Assembly: GCF_006439355.1 (NCBI RefSeq)
Contig: NZ_VFTG01000010.1
Span: 62,001-126,000, forward strand
Source of the DNA: Mesorhizobium sp. B4-1-3
Lineage (GTDB): Bacteria > Pseudomonadota > Alphaproteobacteria > Rhizobiales > Rhizobiaceae
DNA: 64,000 bases
Direction: 5' to 3'
The translations under genes and the position numbers were made by a program. Below are positions 49,164 to 62,169 of this stretch, piece after piece (within the stretch, counting starts at the first letter, position 1; every line of letters begins with the position of its first letter). The notes under the pieces are model-generated. The model had not been told where the DNA came from. It did not search any database and was given only the letters and a program-made list of their open reading frames with translations.

Positions 49164-50330
49164 ATGACTTCGACGCGACGTTCACTTCTCAAAGCCGGAG
49201 TGGCAGGGCTGCTCACATTGCCGCGATCCTATGCTTCGGCCAGCCAGCAAGGCCAGTCCTTCGAAAGCTGGCGGCGCGACTTCGAGGCGAGTGTTCCAGC
49301 ACGTTTGAACGCCGCGAAGGTTCCCGGCGCCGCCGTTGCGATAGCATCCAAGAAGGGTGGCACGCGATATGCCACAGCATTTGGCTTTGCCGATATCGAG
49401 CAGATGCGAAAGCTCACGCCTGAGACGCCCATGCATCTGGCCTCCGTCAGCAAGCTGTTCACCGCCTCCGCGCTGGTGCAGCTCTTCGAGCGGCGACGTC
49501 TGGACCTCCACAGCGATGTGAACACTTTCATCGATTTTCCGGTCAGAAATCCGCGCCATCCTCGCATTCCGATCACCCCTCACCAACTCATCACCCACAC
49601 GTCCAGTATTTCCGATGAAGGATACGGCGACGTCTCTTTCCCAGGTGATCCCAAACAGAGTCTGTCGAGCTTCCTCAAGGACTATCTTGTCAAGGGCGGT
49701 GCCACCTATTCACAGCACTCGTTTCTGAATGCAGAGCCTGGGGCAAAGTGGGACTACTGCAACGTTGCCGTTGCTTTGGCGGGTTATGTCGTCGAGCACG
49801 TCAGCAAACAGAGCTTTTCCTCCTATGTGGAAACCAACATTCTCCAACCGCTCGGCATCCACAACGCCCATTGGTATCTGAAGGACTTCGCGCCGAATGT
49901 GCTGGCTAAGCCATACGAGCTCGAGAACGGAAGATTGGTCGCGCTGCCGCAGCAGGGATATCCCGACGTTCCCGCCGGCATGCTTCGCTGCTCGGTCAGC
50001 GATCTTGCATCGTCGCTGCGGGCGATGATCGGCGCTGACGCCGGCGAGCGGGCCATTCTGTCCGAGCGAGCGGTAGCCGAAATGCTGCGGCGACAGGTCG
50101 ACCCGAAAATCTATGCTTATCAAGGGCTCGGCTGGACGGAAGAAGAAACCACGACCCAAAAGTTCGTCGGCCATTCGGGCAGCGACAACGGAGCATTGAA
50201 TATGGTTGCCCTAACCGGCGATCGGAATCATGCCGTGGCTGTGTTGCTGAACGTCGATGGCACCCCTGCGACGAGCAGTTTTCGGGCCTCGATGGTCGAC
50301 GACCTGTTGGTCGGAGCGAAGCTTGCATGA
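49164..50330 (+). CDS. Serine hydrolase (beta-lactamase/esterase/D-aminopeptidase-like)
   Basis: A 388-residue exported enzyme of the class C beta-lactamase fold. Visible: SVSK at about residues 94-97 (nucleophile and base), YCN at about 197-199 and HSGSDNG at about 337-343 in place of the KTG triad. The N-terminus RRSLLKAGVAGLLTL resembles a twin-arginine-like or Sec signal. In the operon with a peptide transporter and porin it may trim D-amino acid peptides, esters or beta-lactams before uptake. Substrate unknown. Confidence 0.82.
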   Translation: MTSTRRSLLKAGVAGLLTLPRSYASASQQGQSFESWRRDFEASVPARLNAAKVPGAAVAIASKKGGTRYATAFGFADIEQMRKLTPETPMHLASVSKLFTASALVQLFERRRLDLHSDVNTFIDFPVRNPRHPRIPITPHQLITHTSSISDEGYGDVSFPGDPKQSLSSFLKDYLVKGGATYSQHSFLNAEPGAKWDYCNVAVALAGYVVEHVSKQSFSSYVETNILQPLGIHNAHWYLKDFAPNVLAKPYELENGRLVALPQQGYPDVPAGMLRCSVSDLASSLRAMIGADAGERAILSERAVAEMLRRQVDPKIYAYQGLGWTEEETTTQKFVGHSGSDNGALNMVALTGDRNHAVAVLLNVDGTPATSSFRASMVDDLLVGAKLA

Positions 50331-50433: not shown

Positions 50434-50604
50434 GGAAATATCCGTCGAGCTTCAATGCCAGGAGTGAGGCCGGCCTGAGCTAGCCTCAACCCGACACTCA
50501 CAGGGCCAAAAAAATCCATCTGGTCCAGAGCGTATGAGGCATTTGGCTCGCTCGAGATGATGAAACGGGTGGGATCGGCAGTTCGGTGCAATCGGCGTCG
50601 GGGC

Positions 50605-51354
50605 ATGCAGGATCTGGCGGTGCATGACGTCTTCCAAAGATTGGTCGAACAACTGACAGCCAGTTCCGGCGAGCTCGATCTGCGCACCGCCCTGGCGGAG
50701 GCGGCCGCTTCGCTGGATTTGCCTTCCTTCGCATATCTTCTTGCCTCCCCCAAGCTGGCGTGCGCCACGAGCCTGATCTCCACCTACCCTTGTCCCTGGA
50801 CGACCCACTATCTACGGAGCGCTTACGAGAAGCTCGATCCGGTCATTGTGCTGGCGCGTAGCCGCCAGGATCCGTTCAGCTGGCATGCCGACGGCGGCGA
50901 TCTCGGATGGTCAGCAAGACAACAGGAGTTGATGGAAGAGGCCAGGCAATTCGGCATTCACTGCGGGTTCACCATTCCAATTCATGATCACCGCGGCCAC
51001 TTTGCGGCTCTGACCTTCGCTTCCGATGAAACTCGGCCATTGTTCCTCCGCACGATTGAACGGTACGAGCGCGTCCTGCAGCTGATTGCAATTTTCTTCC
51101 ATATCCACGCGCGCCAGTTCCTGACAGACACGGGCGTCGTGGATGGTGTCGCTTTATCGCGAAGAGAGGTTGAATGTCTAAAATGGGCCGCTCGCGGCAA
51201 GTCGGCTTGGGATATCGGCCATATCCTTGGCATCAGTCAGCGTACCGCGGCGTTCCATCTCGACAATGCCAAGAAGAAACTGGGCGTGCGGACCATCACT
51301 CAAGCAGCTGTCCGGTTGGCGATATCTAGGCCTTCCAAATTTAGCCGGGAGTAA
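50605..51354 (+). CDS. traR: LuxR-family AHL-responsive activator TraR
   Basis: About 249 residues from ATG 50605 (the frame is open from 50557). The autoinducer domain has the invariant residues in YPCPWTTHYL (W65, Y69), KLDPVIVLARS (D78, P79) and FSWHADGG (W93). The C-terminal LuxR helix-turn-helix is LSRREVECLKWAARGKSAWD and ILGISQRTAAFHLDNAKKKL. It sits directly upstream of traI. By analogy with ICEMlSymR7A TraR it would bind AHL and activate traI-fseA. QseM is its expected antiactivator. Confidence 0.88.
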   Translation: MQDLAVHDVFQRLVEQLTASSGELDLRTALAEAAASLDLPSFAYLLASPKLACATSLISTYPCPWTTHYLRSAYEKLDPVIVLARSRQDPFSWHADGGDLGWSARQQELMEEARQFGIHCGFTIPIHDHRGHFAALTFASDETRPLFLRTIERYERVLQLIAIFFHIHARQFLTDTGVVDGVALSRREVECLKWAARGKSAWDIGHILGISQRTAAFHLDNAKKKLGVRTITQAAVRLAISRPSKFSRE

Positions 51355-51357
51355 AGC

Positions 51358-51379
51358 AACCTGTGCACCTGCGCAGGTT
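51358..51379 (+). promoter_or_regulatory. Predicted tra-box (TraR-binding site) upstream of traI
   Basis: aacctgtgca-cc-tgcgcaggtt: two 10-base half-sites in inverted orientation with nine of ten matching positions. It starts four bases after the traR stop and lies 59 bases before the traI ATG, the expected place for a LuxR-type site overlapping the -35 region. Confidence 0.75.
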
Positions 51380-51438: not shown

Positions 51439-52068
51439 ATGCTGCAGTTGATCACGCCGGATTGCTACGCCGATTTTGCTGACGAGCTTAAGGAGATGTA
51501 CCGGTTGCGGCACCGCGTCTTCAGCGACAGGCTGAACTGGGACGTTTCTGCCGACGGCGATTGTGAGGTTGATCATTTCGACGGGCTGAACCCTTGCTAC
51601 CTCCTGCTCCGGGGGCTGGATCGGCGCGTTGACGGCTGTGTCCGCCTGCTACCGACGACCGGGCCGACGATGCTGCGCGACTGCTTCGCCGTGCTCCTTG
51701 CGAACCGCCCCGCGCCCGCCGATTCACGGATTTGGGAAAGCAGTCGCTTCGCTCTTGATCTTCCGTCGTCGGCTCCGAAGCAGGCCGGTATAGCCGTCGG
51801 CACCTACGAACTCTTCGCAGGCATGATCGAGTTTGGTCTTTCGCGAGATCTGAGCCGGATCGTGACGGTGACGGATCTGCGCATCGAAAGGATTCTGCGC
51901 CGTGCCGGCTGGCCCCTCGAGCGCCTGTCTGACCCTCAGACGATCGGGAGCACGCGTGCCGTTGCCGGATATCTCCGCGTATCTATGGACGATCTTGCAG
52001 CGATCCGGCGCAACGGCGGCATCAACGGGCCGGTGCTGTGGGCACCTGTGCTCAACAAGGTTGCTTGA
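51439..52068 (+). CDS. traI: Acyl-homoserine-lactone synthase TraI (LuxI family)
   Basis: A 209-residue LuxI enzyme from ATG 51439 with a GAGGAGG site. All conserved positions are present: R24, F28 and W34 (MYRLRHRVFSDRLNWDV), D45 and D48 (EVDHFD), R69 (GCVRLLPTTGP) and E100/R103 (WESSRFAL). It makes an acyl-homoserine lactone from SAM and acyl-ACP. The fatty acyl chain cannot be predicted. The fseA frames follow after 37 bases, so the three are probably one TraR-driven transcript. Confidence 0.92.
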   Translation: MLQLITPDCYADFADELKEMYRLRHRVFSDRLNWDVSADGDCEVDHFDGLNPCYLLLRGLDRRVDGCVRLLPTTGPTMLRDCFAVLLANRPAPADSRIWESSRFALDLPSSAPKQAGIAVGTYELFAGMIEFGLSRDLSRIVTVTDLRIERILRRAGWPLERLSDPQTIGSTRAVAGYLRVSMDDLAAIRRNGGINGPVLWAPVLNKVA

Positions 52069-52105: not shown

Positions 52106-52363
52106 ATGACAGCGACAGGCTCTGATCCCGCTGTGCCGCACTGGCAGGATGAAGCCGCCTATGGCTATACGCAAGGTCTGACCAGCCACGGCTGGGCATG
52201 GGAGTTCCTTCGCCGCAATGCAGCCTTTCGGCGCGATCTGGCGGAGGCATTGCGCCACGCGCAGCAGTGTCAACCCTCTGGCAGCGCATGCACGCAATTT
52301 CGGCTCGTCGGTGTCGACCTTTCGCGGTGGGGCGTCCTGTTTTGCAAGCTCTGGCGAGAGTGA
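52106..52363 (+). CDS. fseA: FseA N-terminal part (Msi172-like)
   Basis: 85 residues starting MTATGSDPAVPHWQDEAAYGYTQG (written here as HWQDEAAYGYTQGL) with GWAWEFLRRNAAFRRDL, the N-terminal domain of the DUF6499/DUF2285 proteins. The frame ends at TGA 52361 soon after VDLSRWGVLFCKLWRE. At the codon TTT (52340-52342) followed by T, a +1 slip joins it to the next frame. ICEMlSymR7A msi172 has this layout and its +1 slippage of tRNA-Phe makes FseA, the activator of rdfS. On its own the short product probably has no activator role. Confidence 0.85.
   Translation: MTATGSDPAVPHWQDEAAYGYTQGLTSHGWAWEFLRRNAAFRRDLAEALRHAQQCQPSGSACTQFRLVGVDLSRWGVLFCKLWRE
52340..52343 (+). promoter_or_regulatory. Programmed +1 ribosomal frameshift site
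   Basis: Codons CTG-TTT-TGC: tRNA-Phe on UUU can move one base forward onto the overlapping UUU. Beyond it the +1 frame continues ASSGESDASVFW without a stop until 52919, while frame 0 stops seven codons later. Confidence 0.75.
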
Positions 52364-52919
52364 CGCGAGCGTCTTCTGGTGTCCTCGCCAATGCTCGAGC
52401 GTACTGGTGGTAGTCGCGGAATCCGCGATTTTTCCGAATGGTGACGACGCAGTTTTCGATCCTGCACAGGTCTGTTGCCGAATGTCCATCCTGCTTTCCG
52501 GCGACGCACATCAGCACGTTCTGTTCGAGGATGAAGCCAAGGCTTTGCAACTGGCTGTTTCGGGTGCAAGCCTTCTCGAACCGGCGCGACTGACCTCCAC
52601 GATCTTATGGGCGCCGGCGGACGTGAAGCGGAGCCTGACCGGGATCGCATGCCTGAACGGGCTCCGGTCGAGCGGCAGACTGGCCGATAGATTTTTTCCG
52701 CCCGAGCCGCGCGGGCCGCGGCTCCGCTCTGTCCTTCGCGCGTTCGATGGCTTCGTGGCGGGCGCATCGCATCGCGAGATCGGCGTCGTCCTTTTTGGGC
52801 AAGCCCGCGTCGACCACGATTGGGCGGATCCCCGAGACCACCTGCGCGACACCGTGCGCCGCGCGATAGGGCGGGGCCGCCTTCTTGTAAACGGCGGCTA
52901 CAGGCAATTTATGCGCTAG
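52344..52919 (+). CDS. fseA: FseA C-terminal part (Msi171-like, DUF2285)
   Basis: 191 codons in the +1 frame. SGESDASVFWCPRQCSSVLV continues the N-terminal domain exactly where fused homologues continue (pattern R/F-x-x-D-P...VFW-x-P-x-x-x-x-VL). The DUF2285 part reads LRALRAFDGF-like SVLRAFDGFVAGASHREIG, then DHLRDTVRRAIGRGRLLV. There is no good independent start. The fused FseA would be about 271 residues and activate rdfS; the QseM antiactivator shares this domain. Confidence 0.82.
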   Translation, partial: ASSGESDASVFWCPRQCSSVLVVVAESAIFPNGDDAVFDPAQVCCRMSILLSGDAHQHVLFEDEAKALQLAVSGASLLEPARLTSTILWAPADVKRSLTGIACLNGLRSSGRLADRFFPPEPRGPRLRSVLRAFDGFVAGASHREIGVVLFGQARVDHDWADPRDHLRDTVRRAIGRGRLLVNGGYRQFMR

Positions 52920-53140: not shown

Positions 53141-53401
53141 TTATGCCGCACGCCCTGCGAACAGCGCCTTGTACCCACTGGTTATCAGCCAGTTCGTCCT
53201 TTCCAGGTGACTACGGATCGCCTTGCGAGCGCGACTTGGCTCCTGCCTTGGATCGATACCCAATATGGTGTGCGCCATCTCCTCCTCGCTGGCATTGTAG
53301 GAGCACGCGTCGAGGAGCCTCAGATAGATCGCGAAATGCTCATTGTCGTAGGTGGTTAGGCTGTCGGCCCAGGGAACTTCGTCGGCTACATTTTCAATCA
53401 T
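53141..53401 (-). CDS. qseM: QseM-like antiactivator (DUF2285)
   Basis: An 86-residue DUF2285 protein: VADEVPWADSLTTYDNEH, YLRLLDACSYNASEEEMAH and KAIRSHLERTNWLITSGYKAL. In ICEMlSymR7A, QseM of the same size and fold binds TraR and FseA and blocks transfer in most cells. Placement beside a divergent Xre-type gene agrees with qseM-qseC. Small size and DUF2285 alone make this assignment good but inferential. Confidence 0.82.
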   Translation of the reverse strand: MIENVADEVPWADSLTTYDNEHFAIYLRLLDACSYNASEEEMAHTILGIDPRQEPSRARKAIRSHLERTNWLITSGYKALFAGRAA

Positions 53402-53486: not shown

Positions 53487-53702
53487 ATGGAGATCCGAGA
53501 GGTGTTTGCCCGCAATCTGCGCCAGCAACGCCAAAGAAAGAACCTGTCACAAGAGGCGCTGGCGCATGAGGCTGGCGTCGACCGGACCTATATCAGCGCG
53601 CTTGAGCGCTCGGTCTACGCCGCGAGTATCGATACGGTCGCAAAGTTGGCCAGAGTCCTAGAGGTCAGGCCAGCGGATTTGCTCGATCCCGATTCACGGT
53701 AG
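53487..53702 (+). CDS. qseC: QseC-like Xre-family regulator
   Basis: 71 residues, almost all a Cro/C1-type helix-turn-helix: NLRQQRQRKNLSQEALAHEA then GVDRTYISALERSVYAASID. Divergent from qseM with paired operator sites between them. In ICEMlSymR7A QseC controls qseM and itself by concentration-dependent occupancy of two operators, making a switch. Only a short 5' untranslated region is possible here. Confidence 0.85.
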   Translation: MEIREVFARNLRQQRQRKNLSQEALAHEAGVDRTYISALERSVYAASIDTVAKLARVLEVRPADLLDPDSR

Positions 53703-54117: not shown

Positions 54118-55083
54118 ATGCGCAAGACCGGCAAACATGGTGCCCGCGGCGAAGTTGGCGGGAAGAAGGGCGAGCCGCTTAAGCGCAGCCTTTATTCGGA
54201 GATCACTGACCGCATCATCGCTGATCTGGAGCGGGGTTGCGTGCCTTGGGTCCAGCCTTGGGGGAAGGCGAATGCCTCCCTTGGCCTGCCGAAGAACGCC
54301 GCCACGGGGCGGAGCTATTCGGGGATCAATATCCTGATCCTGTGGGGCGCGGTGATCGAACGCGGTTACTCCGGCCAGAACTGGCTCACCTTCCGGCAGG
54401 CGCTTGCCCTCGGCGGCAATGTCCGGAAGGGCGAGCACGGCACCACCATCGTGCATGCCGACCGCTTCGTTCCGAAGGGCGAGAAGGAGCGCGCCAAGAC
54501 CGATGGCGACGAGCCGCAGGCCGTTCCTTTCCTCAAGCGCTTCACTGTCTTCAACGTCGCGCAATGCGATGGCCTGCCCGAACACCTCTACGCTGACGCC
54601 GAGCCGCTGCCCGAACGCGATATCATCCCGCAGGCCGAAGCGCTCATGCGCGCGAGCGGTGCGGACATCCGCATCGGCGGCGATCGCGCGCTCTACATGC
54701 TTGCCGGCGACTTCATTCAGCTGCCGCCCCAGCCGGCTTTCTTCAAGCAGATCGACTACTACCGCACTTGCTTTCACGAGCTTGGCCACTGGACCGGACA
54801 CCCGACGCGGCTCGCCCGTGACATGTCCGGCTCGTTCGGGTCCAAGGCCTATGCTCGCGAGGAACTGGTCGCCGAGATCGCCGCAGCTTTCGTTTGCTCC
54901 ACGCTCGGCATCGAGCCGACCGTGCGCCACGCCGACTATCTAGGCTCGTGGCTCGCGGTGCTGCGCGAGGACAACCGCGCCATCTTCCGTGCCGCCAGCC
55001 TTGCTTCGAAAGCTGCCGATTTCCTGCTCGCTTTCGGGGCCGGCGCGGTCGACGCGGAGGACCTTGGGGAGATCGCGGCATGA
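54118..55083 (+). CDS. ardC: ArdC-like antirestriction protein (DUF1738 plus zincin domain)
   Basis: A 321-residue protein. N-terminal ssDNA-binding region: YSEITDRIIADLERGCVPWV, then GRSYSGINILILWG and GGNVRKGEHGTTIVHADRF. C-terminal M78-like metallopeptidase domain: DYYRTCFHELGHWTGH with zinc ligands HExxH, and EELVAEIAAAFVC. ArdC proteins protect incoming single-stranded DNA from restriction. Start of a run of ICE cargo genes linked by short overlaps. Confidence 0.88.
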   Translation: MRKTGKHGARGEVGGKKGEPLKRSLYSEITDRIIADLERGCVPWVQPWGKANASLGLPKNAATGRSYSGINILILWGAVIERGYSGQNWLTFRQALALGGNVRKGEHGTTIVHADRFVPKGEKERAKTDGDEPQAVPFLKRFTVFNVAQCDGLPEHLYADAEPLPERDIIPQAEALMRASGADIRIGGDRALYMLAGDFIQLPPQPAFFKQIDYYRTCFHELGHWTGHPTRLARDMSGSFGSKAYAREELVAEIAAAFVCSTLGIEPTVRHADYLGSWLAVLREDNRAIFRAASLASKAADFLLAFGAGAVDAEDLGEIAA

Positions 55084-58375: not shown

Positions 58376-58554
58376 CCGGCGAGACCAATAGCCCTCGCGC
58401 CGCCGGCGCGGGGGCTCCCTTCCGAAGTCCTCCAGCGCGAACCTAGCCCGCCCGAGGGGCGGCGAAAACTCCCAACCGACTCTTCGCCCGTCCCGCAAGT
58501 GCTCTCGCTCGCCGATCCTCGCCGTCGGCTTCCATAGGCGAAACGAGGATCATC

Positions 58555-58794
58555 ATGGACGACGAAAACGAACGCGCCGCCCGCGCCAAGAAGGGCAGCC
58601 CGTTCCTCAATACGGCGCAGGCTGCCTTCTATATCGGCCTTTCTCAACGAACCTTGGAAAAGATGCGGATCAAGGGTGCTGGCCCGAAATTCCGCAAGCA
58701 CGGCCGCTATGTCCGCTACCACATCGATGAGCTCGACGAGTGGTCGAAAGGACGCCAAGACGAGACCGGCGCCGATGACGGAGGTCGCTCATGA
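58555..58794 (+). CDS. rdfS: RdfS-like excisionase (helix-turn-helix)
   Basis: 79 residues with an AlpA/MerR-like winged helix: FLNTAQAAFYIGLSQRTLEKM, then GPKFRKHGRYVRYHIDELDEW. It is followed in four-base overlap by traF and then transglycosylase and rlxS genes, the operon order of ICEMlSymR7A rdfS. RdfS redirects the integrase toward excision and is switched on by FseA. The upstream gap 58376-58554 should hold its promoter. Confidence 0.85.
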   Translation: MDDENERAARAKKGSPFLNTAQAAFYIGLSQRTLEKMRIKGAGPKFRKHGRYVRYHIDELDEWSKGRQDETGADDGGRS

Positions 58795-59339
58795 GCCGGC
58801 GACCTTCCATCCGCCTGATCGGCAGTAAGCTGCGGCGGATTCGCGCCCGCAAAGCGATCTCCGCGACGGCGATTGGCCTAGGCCTCCTTGCTTTTACGGT
58901 CTTCGCCAGACCAAGCCCCGTGCTCGTCTGGAACGCCTCGGCAAGTGCGCCAATCGGGCTTTATCGCGTCGTGGCTGGAGCGCCAGCGCGCGGCGATCTG
59001 GTGCTCGCCCGCGCACCGGATTTCACCGCTGATCTTGCTGCTGAACGCGGTTACCTGCCGCGCAATGTGCCGCTGGTGAAGCGCATCGCCGCGCTCCCGC
59101 GCGAGCATGTCTGTGCCTTCAACGAAGCGATCATCATTGGCGGAAAGATCGTCGCGCGTCGCCTCGCGACCGATACGCAGGTCCGTGCGCTGCCTTGGTG
59201 GAATGAGTGCCGCGCGCTGTCGCAGGATGAGTTTTTCCTGCTCAACAGCGAGGCCTCGCGCTCGTTTGACAGCCGCTATTTCGGGCCGGTCCCCGCCAAA
59301 CACATCATCGGGAGGCTCGTGCCGCTATGGACCGAGTGA
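58791..59339 (+). CDS. traF: TraF-type S26 signal-peptidase-like protease
   Basis: 182 residues with one N-terminal membrane helix, then the S26 motif box: SASAPIGLYRVV (catalytic serine), GDLVLARAP and PLVKRIAALPREHVCAFN (catalytic lysine), with YFGPVPAKHIIGRLVPLW near the end. TraF processes the conjugative pilin in related systems. Coupled to rdfS (ATGA). Confidence 0.9.
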   Translation: MSRRPSIRLIGSKLRRIRARKAISATAIGLGLLAFTVFARPSPVLVWNASASAPIGLYRVVAGAPARGDLVLARAPDFTADLAAERGYLPRNVPLVKRIAALPREHVCAFNEAIIIGGKIVARRLATDTQVRALPWWNECRALSQDEFFLLNSEASRSFDSRYFGPVPAKHIIGRLVPLWTE

Positions 59340-59983
59340 CCCTCCTGATGATCGGCATGATCGCCGTTGCGCCATGCGCCTGTTCCGCCTCGACGGGCGC
59401 TGAGCCGGTCGCCATCTCCTATACTCCGCAGCTTCGAAAGTGGCAGCACTTCGTATCGGAAGCAAGCCAACGTTTCCGAATTCCCGAAAGCTGGATCTAT
59501 GCGGTCATGGATGCCGAGAGCGGCGGCAGGACCATGCTCGATGGACGTCCGATAACCTCGCGGGCTGGGGCCATGGGCCTGATGCAGGTGATGCCTGCGA
59601 CCTATAACGAGATGCGCGTCGCGCAGGGCCTGGGCGGCGATCCGTACGATCCGCGTGACAACATTCTGGCGGGAACAGCGTATCTGCGCGCCATGTATGA
59701 CCGCTTCGGGTTCCCCGGCCTGTTCGCTGCCTACAACGCTGGGCCAGAGCGCTATGACGACCATCTGCAGCGCGGGCGACCGCTGCCGGACGAGACGGTC
59801 GACTACCTCAGAAAGCTCAGCGCCGCAGGGGTTTCGGCTTCGGACATCAATGGGTTCAAGGGCAAATCTCCGCCCGAAAAGGCATCGAAAACCTCCTCCG
59901 GGCGATCACTCTTTTTCCTGCGCGACGGTGTTCCTGGCAGCGCTCCGAACGGCGAAATTTTGGTGCCGCTTCGATCGCACTGA
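59327..59983 (+). CDS. VirB1-like lytic transglycosylase
   Basis: 218 residues with a signal peptide and lipobox-like cysteine (APCACS). The SLT domain shows FRIPESWIYAVMDAESGG (catalytic Glu), GAMGLMQVMPATYNEM and DNILAGTAYLRAMYDRF, AAYNAGPERY. It opens the cell wall for the type IV apparatus. The start overlaps the traF gene by 13 bases. Intergenic bases 59984-60201 hold no clear gene. Confidence 0.87.
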   Translation: MDRVTLLMIGMIAVAPCACSASTGAEPVAISYTPQLRKWQHFVSEASQRFRIPESWIYAVMDAESGGRTMLDGRPITSRAGAMGLMQVMPATYNEMRVAQGLGGDPYDPRDNILAGTAYLRAMYDRFGFPGLFAAYNAGPERYDDHLQRGRPLPDETVDYLRKLSAAGVSASDINGFKGKSPPEKASKTSSGRSLFFLRDGVPGSAPNGEILVPLRSH

Positions 59984-60201: not shown

Positions 60202-62169
60202 GTGAAGGATGACGAGTTCAAGCCCAGGCTTGGCAGGATCCGGTCGATTGGCTCGAAAGCCGGCAAGCGCTACGCCAACCAGCTTCGGTCGGCGATCAAT
60301 CGGGCAGGCGGCAAACACCGGCATGGCGGCCGTTTTGCCGGAAGTCGGACAGGACGTGGCGGAGCGACAGCGGCGCTCCTCAAAGCCCGCGACCGCTATG
60401 CCGCGTTTCGCCAGCGTCGGGTGATGGTCAAGGCGCGCATCGTCAAGCTGGCCGGCAAGGCTGTTGAGGGGGCGCGGGCGCATCTGCGTTATCTCAAGCG
60501 CGATGGTGTCACGCGCGGGGGTGAGCCGGGCGAGCTCTATGGGGCCGACAACGATCGCGTCGACGGAAAAGAGTTCCTCGATCGCGCGAATGGCGACCGC
60601 CACCAGTTCCGCTTCATCGTCGCGCCCGAGGACGGCATCGAATATGAGCACCTGAAGCCGCTGACCCGCCGTCTCATGGCCCAGATGGAAGAGGACCTCG
60701 GCACGAAGCTCGACTGGGTCGCCGTCGATCATTTCAACACCGGCCACCCGCACACCCACATCATCGTCCGCGGCAGGGATGATCGTGGCGAGAATCTTGT
60801 CATCGCCCGTGAATACATTTCGTCTGGTTTGCGGGACCGGGCGGCCGAACTTGTGAGCCTCGACCTCGGTCCACGCACAGATCGCGAGATCGAGCTTCGT
60901 CTGCGCCAGGAGATGCAGCAGGAGCGCTTCACCAGCATCGACCGGCAGCTGTTGCGAATGCGTGATGATGATGGCCTCGTCTCGCCAGATGCCCGCAGTG
61001 CGTTTCGCCACTCGCTGCACCAAGGGCGGCTGCGAAAGCTTGAGCGGATGGGTCTTGCCGCGGAGATCGGCTCGGCCCGCTGGCGCCTGGACGATGAGCT
61101 CGAAGGAATGCTCCGTCGGTTGGGCGAGCGCGGCGACATCATCAAGACCATGCATCGCGAACTGACTGGCAGGGGACTCACGCGTTGCGCCGCCGACTAT
61201 GTCGTGCACGATGTGGAACAGAATGCCCAGACCGTCGTCGGCCGCGTTGTCGCGCGTGGGCTGGCTCATGAGATCAACGATCGCCACTATATGATCGTCG
61301 ATGGCCTTGACGGCAAGAGTCACTACATCGGGATCGGCAAAGGCGAGGCCACGGAGCCCACGCCCGACGGCTGCATCGTCCGTGTCACGCCTCGAAACAC
61401 CAAGCCGAGACAGGTCGATCGCACCATCGCCGACATCGCCGCGGCGAATGGTGGGCGCTACAATGTCGATATTCATCTTAAACATGACCCTTCCGCCACC
61501 GAACGCTTCGCCGAAACCCATGTCCGCCGTCTTGAGGCGATCCGGCGCGCCACTGGCGGCGTGGAGCGCGAACCGAACGGCACCTGGATCATCGCGCCGG
61601 ACCATCTCGAGCGTGTTGCCGACTATGAGCGCCAGCGGGCCAAGGTTGAACCTGTTGTGGTCGACAAGCTGTCGTCGATTCCGCTGGAACGCCAGGTAAG
61701 CTTCGACGGTGCGACCTGGCTCGACCGGGAACTGGTTTCGGATCGGCCGGAGGCGTTGCGCGTTTCTGGCTTTGGCCGCGAGGTGCGGGAGGCGCAAACC
61801 CGCCGGCGGCAGTGGTTGGTTGCGCAAGGCCTCGCCCAGGAAGAGCAGGACCGGATCGTCTATCGCGCCAACATGATTTCGATGCTGCGCCAGCGCGAGC
61901 TGAACCGTGTTGCCGGCCAGCTCTCGGAGGAACTTGGTTTGTCCTATACCGAGCCGCGGCCTGGTGATCGTATCGAGGGCACGGTGCGCCGATCCGTCGA
62001 ACTTGCCAGTGGCAAATTTGCCGTCATTGAGAAATCGCGCGAGTTCACGCTTGTGCCATGGCGGCCGGTGCTTGACCGCTACATGGGGAGGGAGGTTTCC
62101 GGGATCGTTAGCGGCGAGGGGATTTCATGGACAGTGGGTCGGCAGAGGAGCGGTCCGAGCGTTTCGTGA
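60202..62169 (+). CDS. rlxS: MobP-family relaxase RlxS (DUF3363-containing)
   Basis: A 655-residue relaxase from GTG 60202. The HUH motif is HFNTGHPHTHIIVRG at about residues 176-190; motif-I-type RYANQLRSAINRAG region and a tyrosine-containing ELYGADNDRVDGKEF segment lie before it. The long C-terminal part is the DUF3363 domain. It nicks oriT and pilots single-stranded ICE DNA. Last of the rdfS-traF-(transglycosylase)-rlxS operon. Confidence 0.88.
   Translation: MKDDEFKPRLGRIRSIGSKAGKRYANQLRSAINRAGGKHRHGGRFAGSRTGRGGATAALLKARDRYAAFRQRRVMVKARIVKLAGKAVEGARAHLRYLKRDGVTRGGEPGELYGADNDRVDGKEFLDRANGDRHQFRFIVAPEDGIEYEHLKPLTRRLMAQMEEDLGTKLDWVAVDHFNTGHPHTHIIVRGRDDRGENLVIAREYISSGLRDRAAELVSLDLGPRTDREIELRLRQEMQQERFTSIDRQLLRMRDDDGLVSPDARSAFRHSLHQGRLRKLERMGLAAEIGSARWRLDDELEGMLRRLGERGDIIKTMHRELTGRGLTRCAADYVVHDVEQNAQTVVGRVVARGLAHEINDRHYMIVDGLDGKSHYIGIGKGEATEPTPDGCIVRVTPRNTKPRQVDRTIADIAAANGGRYNVDIHLKHDPSATERFAETHVRRLEAIRRATGGVEREPNGTWIIAPDHLERVADYERQRAKVEPVVVDKLSSIPLERQVSFDGATWLDRELVSDRPEALRVSGFGREVREAQTRRRQWLVAQGLAQEEQDRIVYRANMISMLRQRELNRVAGQLSEELGLSYTEPRPGDRIEGTVRRSVELASGKFAVIEKSREFTLVPWRPVLDRYMGREVSGIVSGEGISWTVGRQRSGPSVS

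Follow-up and report, generated by a model that had tools for sequence, protein, structure and literature searches.

In ICEMlSymR7A of Mesorhizobium japonicum, the frames msi172 and msi171 are reportedly fused by a slip of tRNA-Phe from UUU to UUC, as a 2015 PNAS study is said to have found, and the R7A slip site is said to be UUU-C. The order in this element is described as traR upstream of traI2, msi172-msi171 and qseM-qseC, with a tra-box spacing of 69 and 67 bp (PMC5882170). The DUF6499 part of FseA is described as carrying the motif AWEFLRRN, and the FseA box as consisting of two inverted hexamers 15-16 bp apart before rdfS; FseA is described as binding the box and activating rdfS (PMC10359603). 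A mechanistically related case is the +1 frameshift of PA-X at UCC_UUU_CGU, for which a move of the P-site tRNA-Phe from UUU onto an overlapping Phe codon is assumed; a single tRNA is stated to serve both UUU and UUC, with better binding to UUC (PMC3498833).

We analysed a window of 64,000 nucleotides from Mesorhizobium sp. B4-1-3, whose genome comprises 6.13 Mb in 58 contigs; the window covers positions 62001-126000 of contig 2. Like ICEMlSymR7A as described, the window has a DUF6499 and a DUF2285 part with a +1 join, and fseA is located 3' of a tra-box and traI and beside qseM/qseC, with rdfS, traF and rlxS as the presumed targets (PMC5882170, PMC10359603, PMC11963761). PA-X is an unrelated protein made by a eukaryotic ribosome, and its +1 codon is UUC, whereas that of the window is UUU. 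Judged from sequence comparison, a programmed +1 ribosomal frameshift at UUU_U is very probably (about 0.85) how the window locus produces FseA, the activator of ICE transfer. Compared with R7A, for which C is the reported base, the window has U as the skipped base; R7A also has a second, traI1 unit, and none was found in the window genome.

The transfer module and its regulatory sites

The features of the locus are as follows (positions in the window, strand, description).
49164-50330, PF00144 serine hydrolase (beta-lactamase-like family), just 5' of traR
50557..51354, +, traR-like LuxR-family quorum-sensing activator, 265 aa (PF03472 E 1.2e-29, PF00196 E 4.7e-16)
51359..51378, no strand, tra-box-like inverted repeat ACCTGTGCACCTGCGCAGGT, read from the sequence, centred about 70 bp before traI
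51439..52068, +, traI, acyl-homoserine-lactone (AHL) synthase, 209 aa (PF00765 E 1.6e-45)
52106..52363, +, fseA first frame (msi172-like, DUF6499), 85 codons then TGA (PF20109 E 1e-12)
52340..52343, +, slip site TTT-T, placed by sequence and homologue comparison
52344..52919, +, fseA second frame (msi171-like, DUF2285 DNA-binding domain), 191 codons then TAG (PF10074, RovC DNA-binding, E 6.8e-19); the join-spanning peptide of the predicted fused FseA contains RWGVLFASSGESD
53141..53401, -, qseM antiactivator, lone DUF2285, 86 aa (PF10074 E 1.4e-6; solved QseM 7uqt E 2.6e-35)
53487..53702, +, qseC-like helix-turn-helix regulator, divergent from qseM (PF01381 E 4.8e-16)
54118..55083, +, ardC-like antirestriction gene (PF08401 E 7.3e-42, PF18818 E 3.2e-52)
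58461..58488, no strand, candidate FseA-box-like inverted hexamers GGCGAA-N16-TTCGCC, 5' of rdfS
58555..58794, +, rdfS, recombination directionality factor, 79 aa (PF12728 E 2.6e-8; solved RdfS 8dgl E 4.9e-42)
58791..59339, +, traF signal peptidase (PF10502 E 9.5e-28; TIGR02771 E 1.3e-26, slightly below its cut-off)
59327..59983, +, msi107-like lytic transglycosylase (PF01464 E 7.3e-20)
60202..62169, +, rlxS relaxase (NF041267, 1049.5 bits, cut-off 850)

The order from 50557 is thus traR-like gene, tra-box-like repeat, traI, fseA in two frames, qseM on the minus strand, qseC-like and ardC-like genes, and, toward the window end, FseA-box-like repeat, rdfS, traF, transglycosylase and rlxS; DUF2958, ParB-like and DUF736 genes, in that order, lie between the ardC-like gene and the FseA-box-like repeat. 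By its gene content and order, the locus is a transfer module of the ICEMlSymR7A type (traR-traI-fseA-qseM/qseC, rdfS-traF-msi107, rlxS). TraR is the top NCBIfam model for 50557..51354 at 94.2 bits, below its cut-off of 250, and traI matches NF052393 with E 5.7e-57 at 192.4 bits, likewise below a cut-off of 250. We infer the names qseC and msi107 from gene position. A conjugative coupling protein of the TraG type and a TrbB-like ATPase, the sole trb-type genes checked, are encoded further 3' on the same contig (L186; L numbers are our own locus handles).

The first-pass annotation had described traR, traI and fseA as contiguous with a single tra-box, and we found the same arrangement with one tra-box-like site. 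Its view that this is a simpler layout does not hold, since the order is that published for ICEMlSymR7A (PMC5882170). It had listed neither qseM and the qseC-like gene nor the FseA-box-like repeat and rdfS. The AHL synthase family has one further match in the genome, a partial one on contig 23 (L107, 87245-87646). A separate second traI1 unit was not found in the genome, in which contig 23 holds the only other AHL synthase family match, and none of the ten genome-wide sites with at most three mismatches to the tra-box pattern is located on that contig.

The tra-box search pattern was written from the window site, whose 0 mismatches are therefore by construction. The traI start could be read at 44 loci, counting that of the window; 28 of them have such a repeat with at most three mismatches 67-74 bp upstream, and the best site of the other 16 has 4-8 mismatches. 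Genome-wide, the ten sites compare with nine for the reversed control, so that the count is no better than chance and only the perfect site was used. The FseA-box-like pair is a perfect one with 16 bp spacing that ends 66 bp before the rdfS start, the letters of the pattern being taken from the site itself. By our estimate, chance alone would place some perfect inverted hexamer pair with such spacing in about 2% of all stretches of 100 bp; with 15-16 bp between its halves, the pair seen here is present at eight places in the genome. With up to two mismatches the window contains 10 sites against 6.3 expected, which is near chance, and only the perfect site before rdfS was used. Together with this repeat, rdfS is a likely FseA target.

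The two frames of fseA and their join

The coding pattern agrees with the two frames described in the first-pass annotation. The gene starts with ATG at 52106, frame 0 stops with TGA at 52361-52363, and the +1 frame is open up to TAG at 52917-52919. The domain matches likewise bear out its assignment to the FseA-type DUF6499/DUF2285 family, and the AWEFLRRN motif is present in the N-terminal DUF6499 part. A comparison of the second part with the RovC structure 6xz5 gave a weak match (E 0.0033); five better-scoring short matches are designed proteins and irrelevant. The two domains of one known protein are encoded in two frames with a single join point.

The slip context is CTG TTT T GC at 52337-52345. 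Near the join, frame 0 reads TGG GGC GTC CTG TTT TGC AAG CTC TGG CGA GAG TGA, and with one base skipped the reading TTT (T) GCA AGC TCT GGC leads into the DUF2285 frame. In the eight loci of the same genus that form a TTTT clade with the window locus as a member (see below), the pairwise differences at the three codon positions amounted to 0.41/0.31/0.57 for frame 0 in the 45 bases preceding the slip site, and to 0.18/0.24/0.39 for the +1 frame in the 36 bases that directly follow it. The constrained frame therefore changes over at TTTT, which places the join at CTG-TTT-T, where it had been put on the sequence alone; the overlapping +1 codon is UUU, not UUC, as had been read, the skipped T lying within 52340-52343. 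In annotation, the locus should accordingly read as encoding one putative fused activator, with its likely target and antiactivator close by.

Slip sites in homologues and the TTTT lineage

Two homologue searches were combined. PF20109 was run against 61 genomes (match in 37) and the first part from the window against 146 genomes of the same genus (match in 97), and the resulting 188 sources gave 183 first-part matches, which after dropping 13 partial ones represent 114 distinct sites. These comprise 93 TTTC and 11 TTTT sites whose second part lies in the +1 frame, plus ten others, namely four TTTC sites for which no second part was found, two TTTC in frame +2, two TTTC in frame 0 and two TATA in frame 0. 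A scan of named genomes contributed L197 of Chelativorans salis, with TTTC, and L200 of Chelativorans xinjiangense, with TTTT. In a wider draw, 385 genomes of the class were searched; 25 matched, including the window's own, and yielded 29 loci (L202-L230). Sixteen were placed as +1 sites (14 TTTC, one TTTT, one TGTC), L227 repeated an own-genome locus, four were in frame 0, and eight could not be placed or had no match. In a recount of all 232 sources, 220 matches less 23 dropped gave 134 distinct sites, 121 of them +1 and 13 others; compared with the earlier tallies, one TTTC locus is now in frame 0 and L214 is no longer kept.

The 121 distinct +1 sites consist of 106 TTTC, 13 TTTT, one TGTC (L208) and one misplaced site (L216). 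The join falls at TTT plus a pyrimidine in 119 of them, and the window site conforms with TTT-T; its skipped base is T rather than C, the commonest form among the loci seen. The fusion point thus has the same position in the homologues, against the possibility, raised in the first-pass annotation, that it might lie elsewhere. The second part has at least 180 codons in 102 of the 106 TTTC loci and in 11 of the 13 TTTT loci, the short ones among the latter being L089 (contig end) and L200 (158 codons). The Phe codon at the slip site is TTT in all 119 TTTC and TTTT sites. Within the second parts, TTC outnumbers TTT among the Phe codons (358 TTC vs 192 TTT), counted over 106 loci that consist of 93 TTTC and 13 TTTT loci without the TTTC loci of the wider draw and so differ from the 106 TTTC sites of the recount.

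Several other forms of the gene were observed. L062, L063, L220 and L221, and partly L218 and L224, encode FseA-like proteins in one frame without a shift, and the first four have TAT or TGT in place of the slip Phe codon. L208 is a +1 FseA-type locus with the slip codon TGT-C at about 1684, either decayed or using a different slip. The first part of fseA ends early at L033 and L064, which lie on a plasmid and are immediately preceded by IS transposases.

The genome of the window (G000) has three more fseA-type loci, L065, L066 and L067 on contigs 5, 8 and 15, all of them TTTC. An RdfS-like gene is located less than 1 kb from the slip site at L065 and L066; L067 has a stop 14 codons past the slip site and is probably broken. 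Several ICEs or their remnants therefore seem to coexist in the cell, and TTTT and TTTC slip sites would meet one tRNA set in this genome.

In a tree of 100 rows, calculated without L067, L151 and L185 (second parts of 14-37 codons), eight TTTT loci form a starred group with a support of 98. A second tree of 56 rows contained 54 of these rows, chosen by us, together with L197 and L200. In it, nine TTTT loci, the eight of the same genus and L200 of Chelativorans xinjiangense, form one clade (100/96), all members of which are TTTT. The eight same-genus members, from eight genomes, share 53-69% protein identity (51-69% with L200 included). L200 may be damaged, since its second part has only 158 codons and ends in a stop. 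Outside the clade, TTTT occurs at L089 and L123 within a TTTC group, once in a distant group and at L207, in a distant family and off the 100-row tree. The 100-row tree requires a minimum of four changes of the skipped base, three of them forced by starred branches. The TTTT loci L036, L143, L156 and L178 have six T in a row and the window has four; the A-site codon is UGC in the window and the clade, UCC in L069 and UGU in L207. At all eight same-genus clade loci, traR, traI and qseM are in place. A link of TTTT to the compact array was rejected because traR and traI are also present at 34 of 92 TTTC loci, some with short flanks. As far as the comparison of these loci goes, UUU in place of UUC at the slip site is a stable variant of one lineage on a known +1 frameshift.

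Two loci illustrate the range of this comparison. L032, on plasmid MesoLj131c2 of Mesorhizobium sp. 131-3-5 (NZ_AP023255.1), shares with the window the order traR, traI, fseA, qseM and HTH regulator, its traR and traI being unannotated in the record and located by tblastn. The bases after the slip, GCAAGCTC, are identical in the two, whereas L032 has TTTC and its second part is 45.5% identical to that of the window. L196 of Mesorhizobium sp. ORS 3428 (NZ_MDFL01000129.1) resembles the window in TTTT and in the order traR-traI-fseA-qseM-qseC-ardC; with 59% identity in the second part it belongs to the clade of the window as a divergent member, and its contig is apparently the one that also carries L180. 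Searches of an open-access library brought up no description of a UUUU slip site in fseA.

Proposed frameshifting at UUU_U and the fate of the skipped base

In the scheme that we propose, and for which we infer the slip, its tRNA, its efficiency and its regulation, TraR, together with its AHL, would initiate transcription from the tra-box that precedes traI, and traI and both fseA frames would be on one transcript. The majority of ribosomes would end at TGA 52361 and release a short DUF6499 protein. In a minority, the P-site tRNA, presumably tRNA-Phe, would shift by one base from UUU to the overlapping UUU with UGC in the A site, and reading would resume at GCA in the DUF2285 frame. Full-length FseA would bind the inverted repeat 5' of rdfS and turn on rdfS, traF and rlxS, and QseM would restrain both TraR and FseA.

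Bacterial tRNA-Phe is a single tRNA for UUU and UUC, with tighter binding to UUC, assumed as for PA-X. A slip from UUU to UUC gains pairing because the tRNA binds UUC better; a slip at UUU_U brings no codon-anticodon gain, though full re-pairing is possible. The slip may differ in efficiency between the two sites, as the first-pass annotation had suggested. No downstream RNA structure stands out at nine TTTT loci (mean z -0.17) or at 21 hand-picked TTTC loci (mean z -0.12), the z of -2.33 at L143 belonging to a single TTTT locus. A downstream RNA stimulator specific for TTTT was rejected on these loci. A Shine-Dalgarno-like G run is located about 14 bases 5' of the slip in both kinds, with mean energies of -6.8 for TTTT and -6.6 for TTTC. 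At 52331-52333, just 5' of the slip site, the window has the Gly codon GGC. GGG is over-represented at this place: 49 of 106 loci use it, compared with 221 among the 1238 Gly codons of the second parts, the loci being related to one another. It creates the run TGGGGG, for which pairing to 16S rRNA is conceivable.

That the gene is simply broken, by a true frameshift mutation or a base-count error and with no fused product, is most improbable. Two frames by themselves would give the same picture, and some related TTTC loci do appear broken or have no second domain in their +1 frame, but the split falls at the identical base in 106 TTTC and 12 other TTTT loci. The latter, which are distinct loci, also speak against the miscounted T run that the first-pass annotation had considered as a refutation. 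Moreover, both parts are under purifying selection in the clade of eight, with a dN/dS of 0.20 (median of 28 pairs, maximum 0.31) for the second part and 0.27 (maximum 0.59, 23 of 28 pairs usable) for the first. Decay or sequencing error is hardly likely in view of this selection, of the slow evolution of the skipped base described below and of TTTT being shared lineage-wide. Scarcely more credible are two separate proteins, with a start in the second frame, or slippage of RNA polymerase on the T run in place of the ribosome. An ATG does open the +1 frame at 52218, a published account argues for separate genes in Azorhizobium (PMC9601964), and the six-T runs at L036, L143, L156 and L178 would suit a slipping polymerase. 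The window, however, has only four T and most of the listed TTTC sites have runs of three, and the variation tracks frame 0 up to the slip site and the +1 frame beyond it, which argues against both proposals.

A programmed frameshift at UUU_U being the preferred reading, the meaning of its U is a separate matter. UUU_U could be a lineage-specific set point: the clade would have fixed U, selection would keep it, and frameshifting without a re-pairing gain and with the slow UGC codon in the A site would reset the amount of FseA per quorum-activated cell. We put this forward tentatively, at well below even odds. The rival to the set point, and to it only, is that the ribosome treats UUUC and UUUU alike, tRNA-Phe reading both, and that the clade merely inherited TTTT, for which the chances fall a little short of even. 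The repeated origin of TTTT, including L089 and L123 within a TTTC group and the distant L207, fits equivalence, as does the finding that A or G never occurs as the skipped base among the +1 sites of the genus-and-relatives set. Against it, the skipped T is invariant in the clade of eight, where 17 of the 18 other two-fold columns with full conservation vary at the wobble base. The 56-row tree shows no change at the third slip-codon base and three changes at the skipped base, and 15 other conserved two-fold pyrimidine columns changed 3-9 times, with one equalling the skipped base at three. The invariance of the skipped T and its place among the slowest comparable sites of the tree suggest that U is retained for its own sake in the clade. 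Its retention may also stem from selection on the short frame-0 product, since this base opens a codon when read in frame 0 (Cys vs Arg).

The array layout and the +1 frameshift of FseA are known; uncommon, on the loci compared, is UUU in place of UUC, kept by one lineage. The slip at UUU_C is usually explained by better pairing of tRNA-Phe with UUC, as stated for PA-X (PMC3498833). The natural clade of nine UUU_U loci offers a direct test of this pairing-gain account: if UUU_U still shifts, the pairing gain would be dispensable, and the UUU_C fseA genes in the same cell would make both sites comparable under one tRNA pool.
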